A program made the position numbers and the translations under genes. From IMG/VR virus record IMGVR_UViG_3300032307_000380, positions 1 through 49,953 of that record: 49,953 bases of DNA; one strand, written 5' to 3'. Below, piece after piece: positions 3,296 through 49,758 of this stretch. The notes beneath the pieces were generated by a model. That model was given only the letters and a program-made list of their open reading frames with translations. It was not told the DNA's origin and ran no database searches. How positions within the stretch are numbered: position 1 is the first letter of the stretch; each line of letters opens with the position of its first letter. Source of the DNA: a virus.

Positions 3296-5179
3296 TTAAG
3301 GAAACGATGGATAATAATATGTCCCAAAAGCATACGACACCACACCATCACCATTTATAACATAAAAATCAAAATACATATATCCCGATGTGAGTATTGG
3401 TCCATCTATAGTATGGGTTCCAATTGTTGCTCCTCCAGGTATTTGTATAGAACTACCATCACCAACTTTTATACCAGAAAATGTGTCTGAAAAATTAGTT
3501 TTATATATTAAACCAGCACCTATTATATTTGAATTATTACTAGGATTGTTTGATGTTTCCATTATACTATAAGTAAGTCTTAATTGTTTCCTAAACGGAA
3601 TGTTTTCATTTATTAAAATTTCAGCGGTAACATATCTAATACTTGGTATTGAATATGGAAAATATAAAGTATTACTAAATGAACCATAAGGTCCAGCAAC
3701 TGTAATAGTGTAATTTCGACCCATTTGTAGTTCAGAACCATAAAGTATTTCACTAAAATAATGTGTTCCTGCAGTTAAACCTTGACCATTATTAAAATAA
3801 ATATTTTGTGAAAGATTGCCATCGATATATATTTGAATAAAATCACTTCCCGTTCGATTACCATATACCGTAATACTACCATCCACTCTATAAGGATACC
3901 AAGAATCTCCACCACCAATTGTGACAGACATAGTGGGTTCTCTATCTATGGTAAATGTGATTTGATTACCATACCCAACTCCAACACTATTTAATGCATA
4001 TGATCTAACATAATGTGTCGACGTACTAAACGGTAAATTACTAATTTGACTATTAAAATTAACTAAACCTGACCCAACAATAATTTTTGTTCCATTTAAG
4101 ATTGTTGGTGTCGGTGAATATGACCAAACAAACCCCCTTTCTGTGATAGGTGAAAGATTATCACTAATAATACTTGCACTAACAATAGCCGATGTTTCAG
4201 TTATAGATGATGCATTATTAGTAGTTAGTGTCGGTATACCCGCAGGTGTTCTTGTTGGTGTTCTTGTTGGTGTGGGTGTTAATGTTCTTGTTGGTGTTAG
4301 TGTAGGTGTTGATGTTGTTGTTCTTGTTGGTGTTAGTGTAGGGGTACTAGTTAATGTTCTTGTTGGTGTTGGTGTTAATGTATTTATTAAAGGACATGTA
4401 ACCCAAATATTATGTGAAGGTCTTGACACTATCTGAATAGTGAAATTATCAGTTAAATTAGATGGAATATTAAACGTTTTTTCTTGTGAAGGTGAAATTG
4501 TTTCGTTAAAAACAATAGTAGAATTCCAAGTTACTTTAACAGAATTAGAAAAATCTCCATTATTTTTTAAAATAAAATTTCCATATCTATTAGAGTTAAA
4601 CGTAAAAAAATAATCGTATATTCCTCTTACAGAGGAAAATAATTCATAGTTGTCACAACTAGCTGTACGATTAAATAATTGATATGTTGTTTCTGTTGGT
4701 GTAGGTGTTGGCGCATTTTCTGTTTGAGTTAATGTTTGTGTTGAAGTTAATGTTGGAGTACTTGTTAATGTCGGTGTTGAAGTTAATGTTGGAGTTGGTG
4801 TTGACGTTGGCGTCGACGTACTAGTAGATGTTGGAGTTAATGTCGGTGTATTAGTAGATGTTGGAGTTGGAGTTGGTAATGATTCAACACGTTCAACATT
4901 TACACTAAAACATATAGTATCATAACAAGGATACGATTTACTATCATGAGTGTAAATGTTTTTTATTATATAACGATTTGTTAATTGGTCGGTCATCTTT
5001 ACCCAATACTGAGTATCAAAAGTTAAACCAGTTATTTCAATAGATGATGCGGTTAGTCCAGTACCGTAAGTTATGAATGTACTATCATTATATTCAGGCC
5101 ATGGATTCTCACCACTTTTATACCTTATAGAATAAGGACCATCAGAAATTATATTATATAAACGTATATTTAAACCCAT
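3296..5179 (-). CDS. Fibre/adhesin-like protein with FN3-like domains and Thr-Pro linkers
   Basis: The protein has 627 aa. Residues 1-97 form an FN3-like beta domain (ITGLTFDTQYWVKM). A Thr-Pro/Thr-Ser linker (about 98-163) leads to a diverged copy of the module found in the neighbouring giant proteins (about 164-262, ending NIWVTCP). A second linker (about 262-320) leads to an FN3-like domain (about 320-411, with ITERGFVWSYSPTPT and STHYVRSYALNSVG), then two further beta-rich domains to the C-terminus. It lies 44 nt downstream of the 2737-aa gene and 70 nt upstream of the propeller-fibre gene, and all three share linker type and modules. Known: FN3-like modules of the ERGxVxSxxPxPT type are frequent in Bacteroidota proteins. 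Inferred: a distal fibre or baseplate decoration for host binding. The exact role is unknown. Confidence 0.8.
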   Translation of the reverse strand: MGLNIRLYNIISDGPYSIRYKSGENPWPEYNDSTFITYGTGLTASSIEITGLTFDTQYWVKMTDQLTNRYIIKNIYTHDSKSYPCYDTICFSVNVERVESLPTPTPTSTNTPTLTPTSTSTSTPTSTPTPTLTSTPTLTSTPTLTSTQTLTQTENAPTPTPTETTYQLFNRTASCDNYELFSSVRGIYDYFFTFNSNRYGNFILKNNGDFSNSVKVTWNSTIVFNETISPSQEKTFNIPSNLTDNFTIQIVSRPSHNIWVTCPLINTLTPTPTRTLTSTPTLTPTRTTTSTPTLTPTRTLTPTPTRTPTRTPAGIPTLTTNNASSITETSAIVSASIISDNLSPITERGFVWSYSPTPTILNGTKIIVGSGLVNFNSQISNLPFSTSTHYVRSYALNSVGVGYGNQITFTIDREPTMSVTIGGGDSWYPYRVDGSITVYGNRTGSDFIQIYIDGNLSQNIYFNNGQGLTAGTHYFSEILYGSELQMGRNYTITVAGPYGSFSNTLYFPYSIPSIRYVTAEILINENIPFRKQLRLTYSIMETSNNPSNNSNIIGAGLIYKTNFSDTFSGIKVGDGSSIQIPGGATIGTHTIDGPILTSGYMYFDFYVINGDGVVSYAFGTYYYPSFP

Positions 5180-5224: not shown

Positions 5225-8200
5225 TTATGGTAATGTTGTATATTCTCTTTCATTACTATATGTGGTACCCTGACTATTAGTAGCATAACACTTAATATAA
5301 TATTTTGTATTAGGTATAACTCCACTAATATACGAAGTGAATCCACCTGTACCCATTCCATCATTTGTTTTTGTTAATAATAAAATCGTTGGATTTGGGT
5401 TAGTTGACCATACAGTACCTTTTTCTGTTATAGTTGATCCACCATCATTAAATATCGGTAAATTATTATTATAGTCATTTGACCATTCTATAGAAAAAGT
5501 CGTTCTTCCTGGATTAATAGTAGAATCAATCCCTCCCTCAATAATACTAGGTGGACATGATAATGTTGTAAAAATTATTTCATTACCATAATTTGTTCCA
5601 AAACTATTTGTAGCATAAGCCCTAATATAATATTGGGTATTTGGTGTTAAATTCATAATATCACTTATAAATATACCTGTACCTATCCCATTATTTGTTT
5701 TATATGAACTATTAATTGTTGGGTTTGGATTCGAAGATAAAACAACACCACGTTCAATCACCGGAGAACCACTATCAATTGTAATGTTTCCACCACTAGA
5801 TACTCCAGTACATGTAATATTAAATATAGGATTAGTTGTTAATATTGGTGTCGTAATAGAATTAGGACAACTTACGTTGATGTTAAAAACACTACTAAAA
5901 GGTGCCGTTACAATTATTAACATATAATTAGGTGATTCATTTATTTTATTAAATGTATAATTTCCATCACCAACACCACTTATTACTGAGTATCCAAGAT
6001 CAATTAATGATTGATTGTAAGATAAATCATCACCCCTAAAACCAGTATCATGAATAAGATTTTCACCTAAATAAATCTGATATCTTTCTGGAATATTTCC
6101 CGAATTATATGTGGTTGTAACATTCCCCGTACCAATACCTATAGGTATATTTAAATAATATTTAGATTTTTGAGTGTTTATCGCGTTAAATGTATTATTA
6201 CAAGTTAATGTTTCGGTAATTACATTTAATGATGTTTCAGGACATTCCATTATTAAATTCCAAGCCGTACCATCTAAAGGTGCCGTTACCACAACAGTAA
6301 CAATTGATGGGTTTGTTTTAGATTTAAAAAAACTTTCTACACCATTTCCAGGTAATGTAGCTATTATTCCGTCTGTGGATTCTCCCCTAAATCCTGTGTC
6401 TATCACTTTATTACCATCCCAAAAAACCTCAAATTTATCTGGAACACTATACGCATTATATTTTAAAACAACATCACCAATATTTGTGCCTGCGTCTATT
6501 ATTATAGTATGTATTCCTTTACCACCAGAAGACCCAATAGATGATGAGGTAATTTCCTGTCCACAATTTCTATTTACCGTTATTAATTCAAAACCTGTTG
6601 GTGTTGGTGTAGGCGTTGGTGTTTGTGTTGGAGTAGGTGTAGGTGTTTGTGTAAATGGTGTTGGACAATTTACAATAAGACTCCAAACGGTACCATTTAA
6701 AGGCGCGGTAACAACAACAGTAATAGTTGTTGGTAATGAACTTGTTTTATAAAATAAAACACTACCTCTACCAGATCCTGAAACAGATGGATAACCATTA
6801 TTATTTAATATAGTATTAAGTGATGAATCACCTCTAAAACCCGTATCTATAACTTTATTACCATTCCAAAACACTTCAAACTTATCTGGAACACTATAAG
6901 CGTCATAATTTAACACAACATCACCTATTTCTGACCCAACATCTATTGTTATCGTATGTATACCTCTACCACCAGATGAACCTATGGATGATGACGTGAT
7001 TTCTTGATTACATAATCCACTAACTGATATGAATTCAAATCCTGTAGGTGTAGGTGTAGGCGTAGGTGTGGGTGTGGATGTTCTTGTTGGTGTTAATGTA
7101 GGTGTAGGTGTTGATGTTCTTGTTGGTGTAAGAGTTCTTGTTGATGTGGGTGTAGGTGTTGATGTTCTTGTTGGTGTAGGTGTCGCGGTGGGTGTTGCAG
7201 TTCTTGTTGGTACCGGTGTTACGTTTCCACAAGAACTAATTATTCTTATAAATGATTCGTTTGAAAAATTAACAGTTTCATAAGAATAATTAGTTCCAGA
7301 ATAATAAAAATATTTTGGAACCGACGTACCAAAGGCGTTATTTAAACAATCATCAACATCATTAAAAATTTTAACATTTTGTAATAAAGTAGGGGTTTTT
7401 GAATAAATTTTAGCAGGTATCGGTTCACCTACATTATAATATTGACAGGTGTTAATTGCACTATTAAATAAATTATAAATTTGGTTATTATTTAAATCGT
7501 ATGTGACATAACCCACAATTACATTAAATTCATAACAAACATTTGTTGGTGTAGGTGTCGATGTTAATGTTCTTGTAAGGGTTTGTGTTGGTGTAACTGT
7601 TCTTGTTGACGTAATAGTAGGTGTTTGTGTAGGTGTAGATGTTAATGTTCTAGTCGGTGTAGAAGTTAATGTCGGAGTTGGTGTTGATGTTGATGTTGGA
7701 ACGGGTGGACAATTTAATATAAAATTCCAAACTGTTCCATCTAAAGGTGCGGTAACAACAACAGTTACAATTGACGGAGAAACACTTGTTTTATTAAAAG
7801 ATACACTATCTGCGCCAGTACCTGAAATGTTTGGATACCCTAACGAATTTAATGCACCATTAAATGTATCACTACCTCTAAAACCAGTATCAATAACTTT
7901 ATTGCCATCCCAAAATACTTCAAACTTATCTGGAACATAATATGAATTAAAATCTAATGTAAAAAGACCAGTTAATGCACCAGTATCAATTGTTATTGTT
8001 TGAATTGATTTCCCACCAGCCCCACCAGATGCGTCAACTTGTTCACCACAAGATGCTATTTTATTAATTAATTCAAATCCTGTTTGAGTTGGTGTTGGTG
8101 TGGATGTTAACGTAGGTGTAGGGGTTGTTGTTGCGGTATTTGTTGACGTAGGTGTAGGTGTCAGTGTGGAAGTAGATGTAGGTGTTAAAGTTGGTGTTGG

Positions 8201-11200
8201 TGTTAATGTAGATGTTGATGTAGGGGTATTAGTTAACGTTTGTGTTGGTGTACTAGTTAAAGTTTCAGTTGGTGTAGGTGTAGGTGTACTAGTTAATGTT
8301 GATGTCTGTGTTGGTGTTGGTGTACCGGTCTCGGTTGGTGTCAATGTTGGTGTTGATGTACTGGTCTCGGTTGGTGTGGGCGTTGTCGTACTAGTTTCAG
8401 TTTGTGTTACAGTTTGTGTGGGTGTTACCGTACTAGTTAATGTTTGTGTTAGTGTCGGTGTTGAAGTACTAGTCTCGGTTTGTGTAACAGTTTGTGTCGG
8501 TGTCGGTGTTGAAGTACTAGTCTCGGTTTGTGTAACAGTTTGTGTCGGTGTTAATGTTGGAGTAGTAGTTAATGTTTGTGTTAAAGTTGGGGTTGGTGTT
8601 TGTGTTGGAGATAAAACACAACTACAAGTTATAAACCAATTTGGAGTAAAATTTAACACCGAAGTAACTTTAATTAAAACATCAGTAGATGATAAATTTT
8701 TACTAAATGAAAAACTACCTGAACCACTACCATTAACTGATGGATAACCTAAATCATTTAATAAAGAATTAAATGTCTCATCACCTCTAAATCCTAAATC
8801 ACTTACTAATGTTCCACCAAAATAAACTTCAATTTTATCAGGTATACCACCTGTATCGTAATTTAATATTATATTACCAATATCTTCACCAACATTAATC
8901 GTCACATAATAAATAACTTTATTGGTTAAATTTCCTGTTGAATCTATAGTTTCATCACACGAACCTGTTTTATAAACTTCTTCAAATAATGTTTGTGTTT
9001 CAGTTAGTGTTGGTGTTTGTGTTGGTGTTTGTGTTGGTGTGGTAGTTAATGTTTGTGTTTGTGTTGGTGTCGGAGTACTAGTTAATGTTTGTGTTGATGT
9101 TTGTGTTTGTGTACTAGTTAATGTTTGTGTTAACGTCTGTGTTGGTGTAGATGTTGGAGTAGTAGTTAATGTTTGTGTCTGTGTCTGTGTTGGTGTTGGT
9201 GTAGGAGTTAATGAAGGAATACAATCAAAGATAGATTTTTCAAGTTCTTGATTCGATGGAATAACGTCACAATTTAATGGGTCAATATAATATTGTCCTG
9301 ATTTAAAACTAATATTAGGATGTTTACTATATGAATGTCTCATTAAAAGTTGATGGTTTATATTACCATCAAATATTGTTATATATTGTTCAGAAAATAT
9401 AGTGTTGTTTTTTGATACATTTATATTATAATATAAACTAATATCACTATAATTCAAATCAACAGAAATAACTTCAATTAAATTACCATATTGATTAATT
9501 AAAAAATCACCATGATCATATGTGTCATCTATCGTTATTGATTTTATTTGTAATTCTTCAGGAAACCTATCATCAAAATGATATAGCCCATTTGTTATTA
9601 ATCCAAAATTTTCAACATATTTATTTGTGTAAACACGTAATTCTGTATTTGGTAAAACTTCAAATATTTCAATATTCCCATTTTTTGTTTGACCTGTTAT
9701 TATATTTTTTTTAACTGAACCTAAACATATTTTATCAGTTACCAATAATTTTGAATATTTGTAAATGAAAGAAAAATCATCATAATTAGCGTCAACAAAT
9801 TGTTGGTTTGTAAATCCAGAAACTGGTAAATAATTTACAGATAAAATATATTCACCCACTTTTAAATCATATACGGTTTTTTTACTTATTGTTCCACCTG
9901 ATATATATGATTCTATTTCTTGTTTTGTTGTTGTATTATCAATTATAATATTTTGATGTATAACTAATACTATGGAATTTTCTTTTAATCCATAATCATA
10001 ATTTGAAATATATTCAACATTAGGTTGTATCGTATAACACATATAATCGTCACATAACGTAACGCCAGAAATTTTAGATATCGTATTTCCAGTTGTTCCT
10101 TGAAATGCAATTAATTCAAAAATCTCAACATGAGTTTTTTCATTTGATGTTGTTAATAAATCATATTCTATTTTTGGTCTTAATCCTAATAATTTAAATT
10201 TAACTTCATTATTTGCCGCATCAATAATATTGAAATCTATTATATCATTTTCAGTAATACCTGTTAATTTGAATCTATTATCATACCCTTCTACTTTTTC
10301 AATAAAAACACTACTATTTTCACTATGTCCATTTATTGAATTAGTATATATATAAAATGGCCAGTTATTACCATTTTGAATACTAAATTTTGTTCCAACA
10401 ATATCAATAAAAATATCTGAAGATAAAAGACAATTTTCAGGTTCTTCACAATATTGTTCTCCATTACCACTTAATTGTACACTTAATCTATCTGTTAATT
10501 TAATTATTTGATAATCAGTTTCAAATCTATAACTAAAATAATCTTTTACTGAACAATCTTCAATACCGTATTTACAAGATGAAAATTTAATTACTTCAAT
10601 ACCTTTTTCGTCTGTTGTTATTAAATATGTTAACATTGGTAAGGTTTCAACACTATATGTTTGACCAGTAGCACCTGTAAATGGTGCATAATTTTCATAT
10701 CCAGATGTATATCTAGATATTCTCATAGAATCAATTAAACTAATTAAAGCACTTACCCATAAACTTTTTATTTTATTTAAATCAGGATTTAAATAGTTTT
10801 TATATTCAGAAATTAATGCAATATTCACTGGATCATCACTAACCAAATCGGTACTACCTGTCATTGGGAATGGGTTAAATAACATAGCACTATTCGTTGT
10901 GTTTGTTATCCCACTAACAACAACGACCATATCGTCAGTCAATATATCATAATTTGGACCACCAAATATTTTACCATCAATTTCTATTACAGGATAAAAA
11001 GTCACACCTGTTAAATTAATTAAACCTCTAAAATTTTCTTCTTCACCAATTAATGTTTCAATATCTTCAATAATTGCAGACTCAAAATCAGGATATACTT
11101 CTTCATAAAAATATTTAGGTTGACACCCAAATTTATACTGATATTTAGAACGACCAAATAAATTATTTTCAATTAAATTACCACCGCTCCATAATGTTGT

Positions 11201-13438
11201 TGATGGTAATAATTGTTCAATTAATTGAACCCAATATGGACTAATTTTATTAACAAATTCTTGAGAATCAATAAAGGTAAAAGAGGTGAATCCCTCCTTT
11301 GAAACATAATCTCGATATATGTCTTCAAGAACTATATAATTTTTCTTATACCTTATTATGTGTGAATTTTTTACTTGTTTGTGTATGAAATTATTCACAA
11401 ATTCGGCAAAAGTAACACCTGTTTGTGGAGGTAAAGTAGCACTACCAAAAGAAATTCCTAAATCTCTAGATTTCCTATATATGTCATAATTTATAGAATT
11501 AGATGCAGAAATATGTATTGAAATATTTTTTCTATTAAGAATTAATTTAGAATCACTATCAATATTATGTGCCTTTATATTGTCAATTTCAGATTTTAAC
11601 CCAAAACCGGTATCTAATCCAGGTAATGTTCTATATATATCAAAATAATCTTCACCATAAGTGTAAGGTTTATTTTTTGTTTTAATAATTTTAGTTCTTC
11701 CAGTTAAATCTGAATTTTCATTATCAATAACTGTTGGTGATCTATGGTCAAGAGTTACATCATACCAACCAGCACCTTTTTCAAAGAAAATATCATCAGA
11801 TTCACTAAAAGCCCTTCTAGGTAAACCAGTATTTTCATCGACAGGATAACCATATCTACTGAAATTTGTTATACCATTAGTTTCAGATTTTGTATATGAA
11901 TATGTAGTCGGGTTAAAATCTGCAACATAATATTTTTTTTCACCTGAAATAACATCATAAATGTCTTGTTCTAAATCAAAACTATTAGGGAATGATGTTA
12001 CTTGGTAAACATATTCATCAATTTTTATTAATGGTTCAGGTGCACCTAAAAATTTTAAAAAAAATTCAATTGAAGATCTGGTTCCTTTAGATTTAAAAAT
12101 AAAGGATAAATTAACTAACAATCTTTTATAAAATTCATATTCAGATTCTACTAAATTTAATCCTAGTGATGAACCATCATAAGATGATATTGTTCTAGTA
12201 TATAAAACATCGTTTAATGTTTTTTCATCAAATAAATTAGTCGTCGAAAAACCTAAATTTTCTGATAAATTTTTTAATAAAATATCAGGTAAATTATTGA
12301 TACCATCATAACTTACATTTCTCATGTAAGCAATGTTATCAATATATTTTTTTACATTATCAAAACTTTGTCCGTATAATTGAAAAACATTTTGAGCTCT
12401 TTTATCTTCCGTATCAAATTCAAACAATTGAGGTGAGGATAAAAATCTAACCACAATGTTTGATTTATAGTTATCTACTTCATCTGATATTGTTTTTAAA
12501 TTTTCAACATATGTTTCAAATTCTAAACCTGTAATCGCAATATTCCACCCATCACTAGATAATGGCCAATTATATTCAACATTTTGTAATGTTATACTTG
12601 AACCGTCATCACTATTTGAAGGTATTTCAAATCTAGAAGAATAAATTGGCACAGTTTCTCTATTCAAAAGAGATTCTTCAATATCATCTAAATCAGAAAA
12701 AAAATCTTCAACTATACCATCATTAGGTCGGATTATAAAATTTTTATTATATGATGTTTCTGAATTAAATGGATTTCCATTAACAACTAAGATTATTTCA
12801 TTAGATGAATTTGATTCAGTATAATTAATTATTGGATAATTTTCATTATTAACTAATATAACATATTTCGTATATGATGAATAAAAATTTCTTATCTCAT
12901 TTTCTGTAGGTAACTTTATTAAACTATTAGGTGTGATTAATGAAATATCAAATGGATTAAAAATTTTACTCTCTTGAATATAAAAAGTTGTTCTATTTAA
13001 ACCATAATCATATGTTATATTATATGCTGAATATGAATTATTCGAAATTGGGCCAGATGCTTTTATTTCAAATCCACTAGGAAACTTATTTATAATTTTA
13101 GTTATCGATACTAATAACCTTTCTTTTAATGACCCAAATAAAGACTTATCTGCATTCCTTTTATTTGTTTTAAAACGAATAGAATTTTTTTTATTTTTTT
13201 GTCCTGTTGGTTCAATTAAATCAATATTTTCTTTTTTATTGATGTCCTCTAATGTCACAAATTCTGAAAATGGTTCAGACCTAAAAGATTTCTCATCTTT
13301 TTCTGGTATGATTTTATCTATTTCAAATACAGTATTAGCAAGCGAAGGACTACCTGTTGTAATTTGTCTTCCAACTAAATTATCATTAAATGTTTCTGAC
13401 CCATTGGCCGCTTGATTTGGTACTTTTCTATTCGCCAT
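5225..13438 (-). CDS. Giant chimeric tail/baseplate protein with C-terminal adhesin array
   Basis: The protein has 2737 aa. The N-terminal 1400 residues are non-repetitive and look like a structural tail protein. Around residue 450 is KSKGTRSSIEFFLKFLGAPE, a motif that resembles P2 gpI-type tail proteins of contractile phages (weak match by eye). From about residue 1408 the chain becomes Thr-Pro/Thr-Gln linkers alternating with modules of about 125 aa at about 1482-1608, 1785-1913, 2131-2259, 2281-2400 and 2401-2526, each built around PDKFEVFWxGNKVIDTGFRG. A different Cys-containing domain (about 1965-2071) sits between the second and third modules. Two FN3-like domains (about 2527-2737) end the protein. 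It starts with a TAATG overlap of the upstream stop. One reading is a baseplate anchor with a built-in fibre; no break or frameshift separates the two halves. Confidence 0.85.
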   Translation of the reverse strand: MANRKVPNQAANGSETFNDNLVGRQITTGSPSLANTVFEIDKIIPEKDEKSFRSEPFSEFVTLEDINKKENIDLIEPTGQKNKKNSIRFKTNKRNADKSLFGSLKERLLVSITKIINKFPSGFEIKASGPISNNSYSAYNITYDYGLNRTTFYIQESKIFNPFDISLITPNSLIKLPTENEIRNFYSSYTKYVILVNNENYPIINYTESNSSNEIILVVNGNPFNSETSYNKNFIIRPNDGIVEDFFSDLDDIEESLLNRETVPIYSSRFEIPSNSDDGSSITLQNVEYNWPLSSDGWNIAITGLEFETYVENLKTISDEVDNYKSNIVVRFLSSPQLFEFDTEDKRAQNVFQLYGQSFDNVKKYIDNIAYMRNVSYDGINNLPDILLKNLSENLGFSTTNLFDEKTLNDVLYTRTISSYDGSSLGLNLVESEYEFYKRLLVNLSFIFKSKGTRSSIEFFLKFLGAPEPLIKIDEYVYQVTSFPNSFDLEQDIYDVISGEKKYYVADFNPTTYSYTKSETNGITNFSRYGYPVDENTGLPRRAFSESDDIFFEKGAGWYDVTLDHRSPTVIDNENSDLTGRTKIIKTKNKPYTYGEDYFDIYRTLPGLDTGFGLKSEIDNIKAHNIDSDSKLILNRKNISIHISASNSINYDIYRKSRDLGISFGSATLPPQTGVTFAEFVNNFIHKQVKNSHIIRYKKNYIVLEDIYRDYVSKEGFTSFTFIDSQEFVNKISPYWVQLIEQLLPSTTLWSGGNLIENNLFGRSKYQYKFGCQPKYFYEEVYPDFESAIIEDIETLIGEEENFRGLINLTGVTFYPVIEIDGKIFGGPNYDILTDDMVVVVSGITNTTNSAMLFNPFPMTGSTDLVSDDPVNIALISEYKNYLNPDLNKIKSLWVSALISLIDSMRISRYTSGYENYAPFTGATGQTYSVETLPMLTYLITTDEKGIEVIKFSSCKYGIEDCSVKDYFSYRFETDYQIIKLTDRLSVQLSGNGEQYCEEPENCLLSSDIFIDIVGTKFSIQNGNNWPFYIYTNSINGHSENSSVFIEKVEGYDNRFKLTGITENDIIDFNIIDAANNEVKFKLLGLRPKIEYDLLTTSNEKTHVEIFELIAFQGTTGNTISKISGVTLCDDYMCYTIQPNVEYISNYDYGLKENSIVLVIHQNIIIDNTTTKQEIESYISGGTISKKTVYDLKVGEYILSVNYLPVSGFTNQQFVDANYDDFSFIYKYSKLLVTDKICLGSVKKNIITGQTKNGNIEIFEVLPNTELRVYTNKYVENFGLITNGLYHFDDRFPEELQIKSITIDDTYDHGDFLINQYGNLIEVISVDLNYSDISLYYNINVSKNNTIFSEQYITIFDGNINHQLLMRHSYSKHPNISFKSGQYYIDPLNCDVIPSNQELEKSIFDCIPSLTPTPTPTQTQTQTLTTTPTSTPTQTLTQTLTSTQTQTSTQTLTSTPTPTQTQTLTTTPTQTPTQTPTLTETQTLFEEVYKTGSCDETIDSTGNLTNKVIYYVTINVGEDIGNIILNYDTGGIPDKIEVYFGGTLVSDLGFRGDETFNSLLNDLGYPSVNGSGSGSFSFSKNLSSTDVLIKVTSVLNFTPNWFITCSCVLSPTQTPTPTLTQTLTTTPTLTPTQTVTQTETSTSTPTPTQTVTQTETSTSTPTLTQTLTSTVTPTQTVTQTETSTTTPTPTETSTSTPTLTPTETGTPTPTQTSTLTSTPTPTPTETLTSTPTQTLTNTPTSTSTLTPTPTLTPTSTSTLTPTPTSTNTATTTPTPTLTSTPTPTQTGFELINKIASCGEQVDASGGAGGKSIQTITIDTGALTGLFTLDFNSYYVPDKFEVFWDGNKVIDTGFRGSDTFNGALNSLGYPNISGTGADSVSFNKTSVSPSIVTVVVTAPLDGTVWNFILNCPPVPTSTSTPTPTLTSTPTRTLTSTPTQTPTITSTRTVTPTQTLTRTLTSTPTPTNVCYEFNVIVGYVTYDLNNNQIYNLFNSAINTCQYYNVGEPIPAKIYSKTPTLLQNVKIFNDVDDCLNNAFGTSVPKYFYYSGTNYSYETVNFSNESFIRIISSCGNVTPVPTRTATPTATPTPTRTSTPTPTSTRTLTPTRTSTPTPTLTPTRTSTPTPTPTPTPTGFEFISVSGLCNQEITSSSIGSSGGRGIHTITIDVGSEIGDVVLNYDAYSVPDKFEVFWNGNKVIDTGFRGDSSLNTILNNNGYPSVSGSGRGSVLFYKTSSLPTTITVVVTAPLNGTVWSLIVNCPTPFTQTPTPTPTQTPTPTPTPTGFELITVNRNCGQEITSSSIGSSGGKGIHTIIIDAGTNIGDVVLKYNAYSVPDKFEVFWDGNKVIDTGFRGESTDGIIATLPGNGVESFFKSKTNPSIVTVVVTAPLDGTAWNLIMECPETSLNVITETLTCNNTFNAINTQKSKYYLNIPIGIGTGNVTTTYNSGNIPERYQIYLGENLIHDTGFRGDDLSYNQSLIDLGYSVISGVGDGNYTFNKINESPNYMLIIVTAPFSSVFNINVSCPNSITTPILTTNPIFNITCTGVSSGGNITIDSGSPVIERGVVLSSNPNPTINSSYKTNNGIGTGIFISDIMNLTPNTQYYIRAYATNSFGTNYGNEIIFTTLSCPPSIIEGGIDSTINPGRTTFSIEWSNDYNNNLPIFNDGGSTITEKGTVWSTNPNPTILLLTKTNDGMGTGGFTSYISGVIPNTKYYIKCYATNSQGTTYSNEREYTTLP
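8095..8610 (-). repeat. Long Thr-Pro/Thr-Gln linker tract
   Basis: About 172 codons of T alternating with P, S, Q and L separate modules 1 and 2 of the 2737-aa protein. Further shorter tracts of the same kind lie at about 9000-9215, 7545-7700, 7045-7225, 6595-6660, 4690-4885, 4220-4395, 1590-1799 and 970-1180. Confidence 0.9.
8452..8551 (-). repeat. Perfect 48-bp tandem duplication in a Thr-Pro linker
   Basis: Positions 8452-8499 and 8500-8547 are identical, with four more matching bases. Each copy encodes 16 linker residues in frame in the 2737-aa protein, between its first and second modules. Confidence 0.92.
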
Positions 13439-46976: not shown

Positions 46977-48851
46977 TTAATTACCATATGGTTTACTACC
47001 GTATCCAAAAAAATTATTAAATTTATCATTAAACGTTTCAACTGCTTTAGGATTTCTAAACGTCTTATTTATTAATTCGTCGTTTCCAACATCATTATTA
47101 AATGTGTGAATATGATTTATTGTCATATTTTTTACTGTTCTATTTTCCATTGATGATAAACTTTTAACATCAAATAAATTTTCAAAAAGACTTGACATAT
47201 CATTAGTAATTCCTTCTAAAGTACCACTAAATGGAATTTTTTTACCAACTGGATTTATCATATCACTAAGTCCTTTAATATATTCATCAGCATTTTGTAA
47301 AGGTATTCGTGCTGCAGATGCGAATCTAACTTTTAACATTGTAGTTATTTCACGTACACTAAGTTCTAATTGTTGTGTTGCTGAATATTGTTCTCTAGCG
47401 ATTTCTTCAGGTGATAACGTTTCAAAATATTTTTGATTTTCAAGAAGAGCAGCCGCAGTGTTTTGGTCTAAATTTTCCAAAGCGACTCTGGTTTCTTCAA
47501 TACCTAATTTTTGTGCTAATGATTGAGGAATGTCGATAACCATTTTACCACCTTCCATTCTTGATATATTAGTTAAAAATTCTTTTTCTTTATCTTCTAA
47601 TTTTAATCCACTTGATAATAAGTCAATTGCTGCAGATGATCTTTCAGCTGCTGCAATTGCTCCATTAGCTAATTCATTATATGAAATACCTAATTCGTTT
47701 GCTAAATCTTTTGCCCTTCTTAAATTAATTCCTGTTATTTCAAATCTACCTTGTTCTGTATTATATGTTGCCAACGAACCAGCAACCCCAATTAACGCAT
47801 CTTGTAATCCTTCAACATTATTTGTTGCCATATACATTAATTTTAATGGGTCATTTAAATCACCAACTGCACCACCAATTGCTTGTAAATTGGCTGATAA
47901 TTCTATTGCCCCTTCTGGACTAAATACTTTTTCTGCTAATTGAAACGCGGATTCCATTCCCATTCTAAATTCAATAGATTTTTGAACCATTTTACTAAGT
48001 CCGTTTATACCATTTTGAAAACCATATTGATTTATTTTACTTAAATTAGTTTGAGTTTCAGACACAACTTTTCTTGCTTGTAAACCAATATTTAAAGATG
48101 ATTGACCAATTTTATTTATATTGTCAAAAGCCTCTTCGTTACCAATACCTAATAATTCAAAATCTCTAACTAATTTTGCAGAATTTTCTAAGTCACCAAT
48201 AAATGCTCTTGACGTTACAGCCATTTTTTCCATAGTTTCTTTATTAACTAATGAAAAACGACCTGTTTGTTCCATAGTTTTTATTACAGTACTGCTTAAA
48301 TCTTCAAAACTGTAACCCATGGATTCAACTGATGGAAGAGACTCCATTATTTCATTTCTGAAATCTCTAGATAATTGTCCAGAAATTCCTATAGATGAAT
48401 TAATATCGTTTCTTAATTTAACTTCTTTTTCTAAAATATCAACACCCCCATCAAATACAGATTCAACTATTCCACCAAGAATTTTTTTTACACTTGTCCC
48501 AAACTCATTTTCTTTTTCTTTTTCACTTTTATCTGATGTCAATATACCAACTAAACTATTAATTGCTCCTGCCAATAATTCAGGTTTTTCACTAATAAAT
48601 GAACTTGAGGCAACACTATAATTAAGACTTTGTATACCTGTTACTTTTTCTGTAAATCCTTTATAGTCGATTTTACTTGAATTATTTTTATTTCTTTCTT
48701 CATTTCTATATTCATCCAAAGCATTCATTGCTAAAGTTTGGTCATCTACACTATTGTTAGTGTAACTACTAATAGCTTGACTATATTTATCAACATCTCC
48801 TTTATATTTTTTAATTTCTTGTAAATAAAAAGATTTACTTTGATTTGCCAT
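46977..48851 (-). CDS. Tail tape measure protein
   Basis: The protein has 624 aa and is mainly helical, with a central alanine/glycine-rich hydrophobic section (about 250-380: SANLQAIGGAVGDLNDPLKL; GVAGSLATYN) typical of tape measure proteins. Residues 95-200 contain KKILGGIVESVFDGGVDILE and repeated amphipathic helices. At the usual 0.15 nm per residue, 624 aa would set a tail of about 94 nm, close to T4, whose gp29 has 590 aa. The C-terminus (INHIHTFNNDVGNDELI; FFGYGSKPYGN) is polar. It follows the gp26-like chaperone and its overlapping ORF, the expected order chaperone then tape measure. Confidence 0.85.
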   Translation of the reverse strand: MANQSKSFYLQEIKKYKGDVDKYSQAISSYTNNSVDDQTLAMNALDEYRNEERNKNNSSKIDYKGFTEKVTGIQSLNYSVASSSFISEKPELLAGAINSLVGILTSDKSEKEKENEFGTSVKKILGGIVESVFDGGVDILEKEVKLRNDINSSIGISGQLSRDFRNEIMESLPSVESMGYSFEDLSSTVIKTMEQTGRFSLVNKETMEKMAVTSRAFIGDLENSAKLVRDFELLGIGNEEAFDNINKIGQSSLNIGLQARKVVSETQTNLSKINQYGFQNGINGLSKMVQKSIEFRMGMESAFQLAEKVFSPEGAIELSANLQAIGGAVGDLNDPLKLMYMATNNVEGLQDALIGVAGSLATYNTEQGRFEITGINLRRAKDLANELGISYNELANGAIAAAERSSAAIDLLSSGLKLEDKEKEFLTNISRMEGGKMVIDIPQSLAQKLGIEETRVALENLDQNTAAALLENQKYFETLSPEEIAREQYSATQQLELSVREITTMLKVRFASAARIPLQNADEYIKGLSDMINPVGKKIPFSGTLEGITNDMSSLFENLFDVKSLSSMENRTVKNMTINHIHTFNNDVGNDELINKTFRNPKAVETFNDKFNNFFGYGSKPYGN

Positions 48852-48875: not shown

Positions 48876-49091
48876 CTATTTTATATTATTTTCTATCTCA
48901 ACAATATAATTTATATAATATCTTCTAACATAAATTGGCATAAGAAGTATGTCGTTGTACGCAAAACCTTTCTTTACTAAGAATAAAATTTCATCTAATT
49001 GTCCTTTTTTATAATCCGTAGAAAGGGCGAAAAAACTCAACCCCAAATCCAACTTCAACTTGTACGGACTCTCCTGATGGGGATTTAACAC
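48876..49091 (-). CDS. Second-frame extension of the gp26-like gene (71-aa ORF)
   Basis: This 71-aa ORF overlaps the gp26-like gene by 83 nt in the +1 frame. Its first 21 residues lie inside the upstream gene and look like a shadow; the non-overlapping 50 residues (LDEILFLVKKGFAYNDILLM, then PIYVRRYYINYIVE) look like a real small domain of the 'FSYxDixxMPxxxRxxxIxxIxE' type that follows gp26-like genes in T4-like phages (recognised by eye). Either the ATG at 49089-49091 is used, or the domain is made as a fusion by ribosomal frameshifting at the TTT TTT CGC site. It ends with TAG, the only TAG stop seen in the window. It lies directly before the tape measure, where lambda-type phages have the frameshifted G-T chaperone. 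Confidence 0.65.
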   Translation of the reverse strand: MLNPHQESPYKLKLDLGLSFFALSTDYKKGQLDEILFLVKKGFAYNDILLMPIYVRRYYINYIVEIENNIK

Positions 49092-49758
49092 TTCTTTTCA
49101 GGTCTAATCCTGGGGTATTATCTTTCACATATTTTTTAAAATCTTGTGAATCTTTGATTGGTAATCTTTCAACAAATTGATGTATATTCATCATTTCTCT
49201 ATTACCAGCTACTGATTTTATCATCATTTCAAGTTGTTTTGTTACTATTGGTGCAACACCAACACCTTTCCAACTTTTTTCTATTTCGTTAATTTGTGTT
49301 AATTGTTTTTTTGTTAAAAATTTAAAAGTTATATCAACATCACATTTTTCCATATGATATTTAAATTCACCGTTTGAATCAGGTTCTAAGTTAAAATCTT
49401 TAAATTTTACTTCACTAATATCAATAGTTGATTTAAATTCTTCATTTGTTTTAGGATCACTTAAGTAAAATGTATATTCAGAACCAAAAGCAGTGTTTCT
49501 TAAAAACAATAAAATAGCTTGTCTATCTTCATCTACTAAATCATCAATTAAAAAATCTTTATCTAATATTTTTCTTTTCAAAAGTTCATCAACAACCATA
49601 TTAGTTGATATTAAGTTTTGTGCTGATAAAATATTTTCATCAGATGCTGTTAAATAAGCAACTCTTAACGACTTTTTTTTATTTTCGTAATGAATACCTC
49701 TTGAAGGTAATTCAACAATGTCATAAGAAATAGTCGGATCTATTTTATATTCTTCCAT
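49009..49758 (-). CDS. 26: Baseplate hub assembly / tail chaperone protein, T4 gp26-like
   Basis: The protein has 249 aa (T4 gp26 has 208). YDIVELPSRGIHYENKKKSL is followed by LTASDENILSAQNLI, VVDELLKRKI and DFLIDDLVDEDRQAILLFLR. This 'LPSxGxxY...TAxDExxL......L.xGDrxxilxxLR' pattern is typical of T4 gp26-family and related tail assembly proteins. The T4 members often carry a zinc-binding CPxC after it; here the segment reads YLSDPKTNEEF, without cysteines. The C-terminal half is helical (KKQLTQINEIEKSW). The last six codons lie after a possible frameshift site. It is the first gene after a strong terminator and so probably heads the right tail operon. Confidence 0.7.
   Translation of the reverse strand: MEEYKIDPTISYDIVELPSRGIHYENKKKSLRVAYLTASDENILSAQNLISTNMVVDELLKRKILDKDFLIDDLVDEDRQAILLFLRNTAFGSEYTFYLSDPKTNEEFKSTIDISEVKFKDFNLEPDSNGEFKYHMEKCDVDITFKFLTKKQLTQINEIEKSWKGVGVAPIVTKQLEMMIKSVAGNREMMNIHQFVERLPIKDSQDFKKYVKDNTPGLDLKRSVKSPSGESVQVEVGFGVEFFRPFYGL
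49027..49035 (-). other. Possible programmed +1 frameshift site
   Basis: The sense strand reads TTT TTT CGC in the gp26-like frame, six codons before its stop. A +1 slip of tRNA-Phe from TTT to TTC gives GCC and enters the downstream open frame, producing a fusion of about 293 aa (243 + 50). TTT-CGN is the core of the known influenza PA-X +1 shift site, and CGC should be a rare codon in such an AT-rich genome. A -2 slip on the T6 run would reach the same frame. Confidence 0.45.

Follow-up and report, generated by a model that had tools for sequence, protein, structure and literature searches.

The window analysed here, a 49,953-nucleotide stretch of viral DNA (IMG/VR record IMGVR_UViG_3300032307_000380), contains a gp26-like gene that reads TTT TTT CGC close to its end, at a point overlapped by a second reading frame, and this raises the question of whether ribosomes pass from the one frame into the other. 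Judged from sequence comparison, a ribosomal +1 slip at UUU-CGC almost certainly yields both a short and a longer chaperone from this single gene; the earlier note had proposed a programmed +1 shift extending the gp26-like protein, and the comparative evidence supports it. The features concerned are as follows.

49009..49758, minus strand: gp26-like gene, 249 aa, the 0-frame short form (PF12322, phrog_150, AlphaFold2, BFVD)
49027..49035, minus strand: putative frameshift site TTT TTT CGC, with C49029 as the skipped base (conserved TTT CGN in relatives)
48876..49028, minus strand: +1-frame extension, 50 aa and stop, the proposed C-terminal domain of the long form (dN/dS, AlphaFold2, cyanophage alignment)
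49078..49082, minus strand: 5' arm of a helix, CCCCA, upstream of the slip site (synonymous constraint, covariation)
49041..49045, minus strand: 3' arm of the helix, TGGGG (GGG codon bias, covariation)
46977..48851, minus strand: next gene, 624 aa, which only its position makes a tape-measure candidate (39% identity with its positional counterpart in L020)

Read on the minus strand, the end of the gp26-like gene is GTT GAG TTT TTT CGC CCT TTC TAC GGA TTA TAA, with GAG at 49038-36, the two TTT codons at 49035-33 and 49032-30 and CGC at 49029-27. When C49029 is skipped the reading becomes GCC CTT TCT ACG GAT TAT AAA AAA (ALSTDYKK...) and runs to a stop at 48878-48876; the slip site, the entry at ALSTDYKK and the 50 added residues (ALSTDYKKGQLDEILFLVKKGFAYNDILLMPIYVRRYYINYIVEIENNIK), as first described, are confirmed by direct reading of the sequence. 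The -1 frame at the site is closed four codons beyond the 0-frame stop. Within the 23 complete genes of the window (15,159 codons) an in-frame TTT CGN occurs only once, at the slip site, and the CGC there is the sole CGC codon in these genes (1 of 469 window Arg codons). The codon at 49089-49091, claimed to be an ATG, is GTG. That no Shine-Dalgarno sequence precedes the second frame is true, but this carries little weight, as the neighbouring ATGs at 49758 and 48851 also lack one. An estimate of chance from the number of open codons that follow stops in the window proved useless because neighbouring genes overlap.

Relatives were gathered with patterns lying away from the slip site, so that the site had no influence on their choice. 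The close and middle-distance clade provided 104 loci with a readable gene end, 77 of them less than 90% identical to each other in DNA, and the site and the extension frame are present in all 104. All of the 77 have TTT as the second Phe codon with CGN directly after it, and all keep the extension. Arginine is encoded by CGN at this site in 77 of 77 cases, compared with 57 of 650 Arg codons (8.8%) elsewhere in the same genes; CGC occurs 24 times at the site and in none of the 650, and CGG 22 times at the site and in three of the 650. These counts are non-independent through kinship, and the fairest measure is the history of the Arg codon on the protein tree, where the third base has changed at least 26 times and the first base, the one skipped in a +1 shift, never. 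In the 26 of 77 sequences with CGA or CGG, a change of that C to A would leave the short protein as it is and would not be read at all in the +1 frame. Synonymous constraint along the gene reaches its maximum at this same Arg codon, and the three properties looked for in a UUU-CGN +1 site, UUU in the P site, a rare CGN in the A site and selection on the skipped base, are all found.

The earlier note had named relatives that keep both frames without the slippery site as the observation that would tell against a shift, and every close or middle-distance relative with the extension has TTT CGN. Of the T6-C site whose conservation it proposed to check, TTT CGN is kept throughout the 77, but in some the six T are interrupted, giving TTCTTTC. 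Beyond this clade CGN is not universal: more distant relatives that bear the extension keep UUU-based variants, among them TTT CTT in Flavobacterium phage immuto and TTT TTT TGG in Microcystis phage Mel-JY01, as well as TTT CTA and others, and the motif reaches phages of Flavobacterium and Microcystis. Six distant loci of 28-36% identity (L214-L219; rumen-type Bacteroidales and a gastranaerophilale) have neither the site nor an extension in either frame, as expected if both were lost together. Two records deserve separate mention. In Mel-JY01 (L035 3776-4012) the annotation gives the extension a gene of its own, which begins at a TTG within the chaperone gene; in a 595-kb uncultured phage record (L040, about 3700-3900) the FF motif is followed by a 0 frame that continues for 18 codons, and a similar domain (YPINERKYI) lies in the -1 frame.

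It is conceivable, though improbable, that the second frame is a small gene in its own right, started at the GTG at 49091, at TTG codons or by re-initiation, with no shift at all. The window does contain GTG and TTG codons in this frame, and the homologous domain is annotated alone in cyanophages, in a KVP40-type Vibrio phage and in SD25, its ATG coinciding with the stop upstream or lying close to it. Two observations argue against it: first, in 15 of the 77 relatives no ATG, GTG or TTG precedes the domain, so that a separate gene would be unable to make the whole of it in the usual way, and the starts in the others are mostly TTG codons forced by the 0-frame sequence. Second, a separate gene gives no reason why the skipped C and TTT should be under selection. 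Upstream of the slip, at 49091-49029, the second frame behaves like a shadow of the first, as had been suspected, with a stop three to nine codons before the slip in those 15 relatives.

The same product but for one residue more, FFF-ALST, would result from a -2 shift, for which phage Mu is a precedent and which TTT TTT would permit through re-pairing two bases back. This alternative, which the earlier note had left standing beside +1, is weakened by natural TTC TTT CGC sites and has little probability. At TTC TTT CGN, found as TTC TTT CGC in L052 and L113 and as TTC TTT CGT in the Streptococcus phage GXN1, an anticodon moving two bases back would meet UCU, whereas a +1 slip meets UUC, the best codon of tRNA-Phe. 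Re-pairing two bases back, which a Mu-type shift would need in all members, is not possible in these three, and two further relatives, with AGC TTT CTT (L033) and AAC TTT CTA (L034), fit +1 only.

Still less probable is that RNA polymerase slips on the run of six T, or that an error of sequencing or assembly in the homopolymer hides one continuous gene. The run is there in the window, and transposase families with mixed shift direction, which may use transcript slippage (PMC3711429), offer a possible precedent. However, transcript slippage is made less likely by the relatives with TTC TTT CGN, where the run is absent, and sequencing error by the number of contigs that share the arrangement, 104 loci. 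Furthermore, the C-terminus of the 0 frame (FFRPF) is itself conserved. A ribosomal +1 slip is preferred to all of these.

That the added 50 residues are a genuine domain, as was first supposed from their appearance, is supported by selection and by structure prediction. Beyond the overlap the extension has a dN/dS of 0.112 over 29 independent pairs, compared with ratios of 0.99 and 1.37 when this DNA is read in its two remaining frames, which contain 221 and 301 stops in 2374 codons. AlphaFold2 predicts three helices with a mean pLDDT of 93, the extension and the short form having been folded apart and not as the fused protein. An accidental overlap, in which the short protein alone matters, has next to no probability against this ratio and against the reach of the motif into phages of Flavobacterium and Microcystis.

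The slip site is accompanied by an upstream helix of the form RCCCCR/YGGGGY, which has five pairs in the window and in the family closes four bases before TTT TTT. It is 95.4% paired across the family, and double-change cells number 14, where shuffling gives 1.8; once the tree is taken into account the covariation is modest, the best position having 2-6 independent pairs in agreement. The GGG codon of the 3' arm is used in 73 of 77 sequences, compared with 10% of Gly codons elsewhere. It counts against a role of the helix that its 3' arm would sit inside the ribosome at the moment of the slip. A pseudoknot pairing TCAGGAGAA with TTCTTCTGA across the site was rejected, as two of its pairs are broken in 25 and 40 of 76 sequences. 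A Shine-Dalgarno-like stimulator of the prfB type is less favoured, since the covarying helix accounts better for the conserved GGGG. In the prfB-type +1 shift the Shine-Dalgarno-like sequence lies about 3 nt before the P-site codon, whereas here GGGG lies 8 nt before the second TTT and is paired in the helix. No consensus structure was found downstream of the slip site.

Family, gene order and fold point to a tail assembly chaperone comparable with lambda G/GT and with T4 gp26/gp51. In profile searches the gp26-like protein matches PF12322 (T4_baseplate, 1.9e-7), a family that also matches T4 gp26 and T4 gp51, and phrog_150 (baseplate hub, 2.5e-8). The AlphaFold2 model of the short form (pLDDT 87) finds gp26 and baseplate hub assembly chaperone models in BFVD. 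Sequence search finds no relative among solved structures; the best structural match among these is the HK97 tail assembly chaperone (2ob9_B, Z 5.0, 95 residues, rmsd 4.4; next Z 2.3), a modest match to which Foldseek alone gives a prob of 0.20 and which is only suggestive of the tail assembly chaperone fold. Sheath and tail tube genes lie upstream in L020 and a tube gene in L064, giving the order sheath, tube, chaperone. The product of the next gene (46977..48851) has no informative profile match and no similarity to the annotated tape measure of a Flavobacterium phage. Elsewhere in the window, at 5225-13438 on the minus strand, there is an open reading frame of 2737 aa.

Taken with the site itself, it is very likely that this is the tail assembly chaperone of a T4-type contractile-tailed phage, the host of which is probably a member of the Bacteroidota, and that a +1 shift at UUU-CGC extends it into a lambda-like two-form system. 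Most ribosomes would terminate at 49009 and release the 249-aa short form. In some, with UUU and its tRNA-Phe (anticodon GAA) in the P site and the very rare CGC waiting in the A site, the tRNA would move one base forward onto UUC, a better match to the anticodon, and the C would be skipped; the forward slip would add the 50-residue three-helix domain to give a long form of 293 aa. The upstream helix probably discourages a backward slip or favours the forward one. By analogy with lambda gpG and gpGT, many copies of the short form may coat the tape measure, and a few copies of the long form may recruit tail tube subunits.

The homologous gene of cyanophage-type phages ends T TTT TTC, and in all 42 loci read a small downstream frame, annotated gp51 in some records, continues in -1. 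A profile of the complete +1 product, built with three intermediate sequences, aligns along 255 columns with the complete cyanophage -1 product (Prob 97.4, E 1.4e-11), both slip junctions lying on the same FF pair. It appears from this alignment that homologous chaperones are extended by shifts of opposite direction on nearly the same bases, UUUUUUCG, differently phased. No consensus helix or other structure was seen around the cyanophage -1 site. In turn, the cyanophage extension has a match in the C-terminal region of T4 gp51 (Prob 97.5, E 2.8e-11 for a single comparison). Alone, the extension of the present clade matches the end of T4 gp51 weakly (Prob 47), and the single T4 gp51 sequence gave no match against the +1 fusion profile, so that the link to T4 gp51 runs through the cyanophage family. 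The T4 context first given for this gene was incomplete: T4 gp26 and gp51 are paralogues, gp26 being the counterpart of the short form and gp51 that of the long one. Only tentatively can it be proposed that UUUUUUCG is an octamer on which the cyanophage type steps back and the present clade steps forward, with the upstream hairpin setting the direction, and that the T4 lineage substituted gene duplication.

Several records of these relatives bear on annotation. The two PF12322 genes of T4, gp26 and gp51 (L036 3803-4429 and 4480-5229), are divergent in T4, and in RB43 the paralogues stand in tandem (L044 3001-3744 and 3737-4294). T4 gp26 ends GAG TTC TTT GAG, possibly a remnant of a slip site. 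In cyanophages and a KVP40-like phage, small genes that carry the annotation gp51 or hypothetical (L041 3193-3384, L042 3232-3369, L045 3274-3441) look less like genes of their own than like the second halves of -1 frameshift products, and in S-RIM8 the annotated start of the small gene falls inside the domain.

Tail assembly chaperones of T4-like phages have already been identified (Vladimirov, Gautam and Davidson 2022), in a paper known here by its title and by papers citing it. The title proposes a mechanism other than frameshifting in T4-like phages; according to one citing paper, some of these phages possess a short and a long gene rather than a shift, and a second citing paper credits the 2022 work with -1 poly-T signals. 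The earlier note supposed that a UUU-CGC +1 shift in a T4-type gp26 gene would be new. Publications on T4-like chaperones and on -1 poly-T sites exist, but in the literature searched neither the +1 UUU-CGN version nor the reversed direction was met. That literature also yielded no frameshift in Flavobacterium-phage chaperones. By all sequence evidence a large T4-type clade depends on +1 at the rare UUU-CGN, and homologues elsewhere carry a -1 site, so that one gene family allows a direct test of how shift direction is chosen and of how gene duplication replaces a shift. In the annotations read here, phages of this kind lack an entry for the long form.

In T4, gp26 and gp51 both belong to PF12322 and gp51 is a gp26-like protein with a C-terminal part resembling the extension, but T4 has two genes and no overlapping frame where a single gene with a shift is found here; a 2016 review described the chaperone frameshift arrangement as widely conserved 'except T4' (PMC5009743). 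The cyanophage and KVP40-type gp26 with its small 'gp51' would give the same two-part product but needs a -1 shift on T TTT TTC. The chaperone of Vandenendeviridae and Andersonviridae likewise has a poly-T site ending the short-form gene, with a shift in the opposite direction, -1 at GTTTTT (PMC12846349). Influenza PA-X (UUU CGU), to which the site had been likened, shares UUU followed by CGN, and here too no downstream consensus structure is detected; it differs in being an unrelated gene read by a eukaryotic ribosome, and in the 5' helix that accompanies the site here. The pairing of a rare A-site codon with a better codon-anticodon match is the logic of PA-X, and by analogy may operate here. 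The haloarchaeal myovirus HSTV-2, contractile-tailed like the phage considered here, has a chaperone gene that very likely uses a +1 shift according to its description (PMC5009743). Lambda G/GT resembles the present system in having a short and a frameshift-extended form, a slip near the 3' end and a chaperone gene downstream of the tube gene (PMC5009743), and differs in that lambda shifts -1 and the present clade, in all likelihood, +1 at UUU-CGN.
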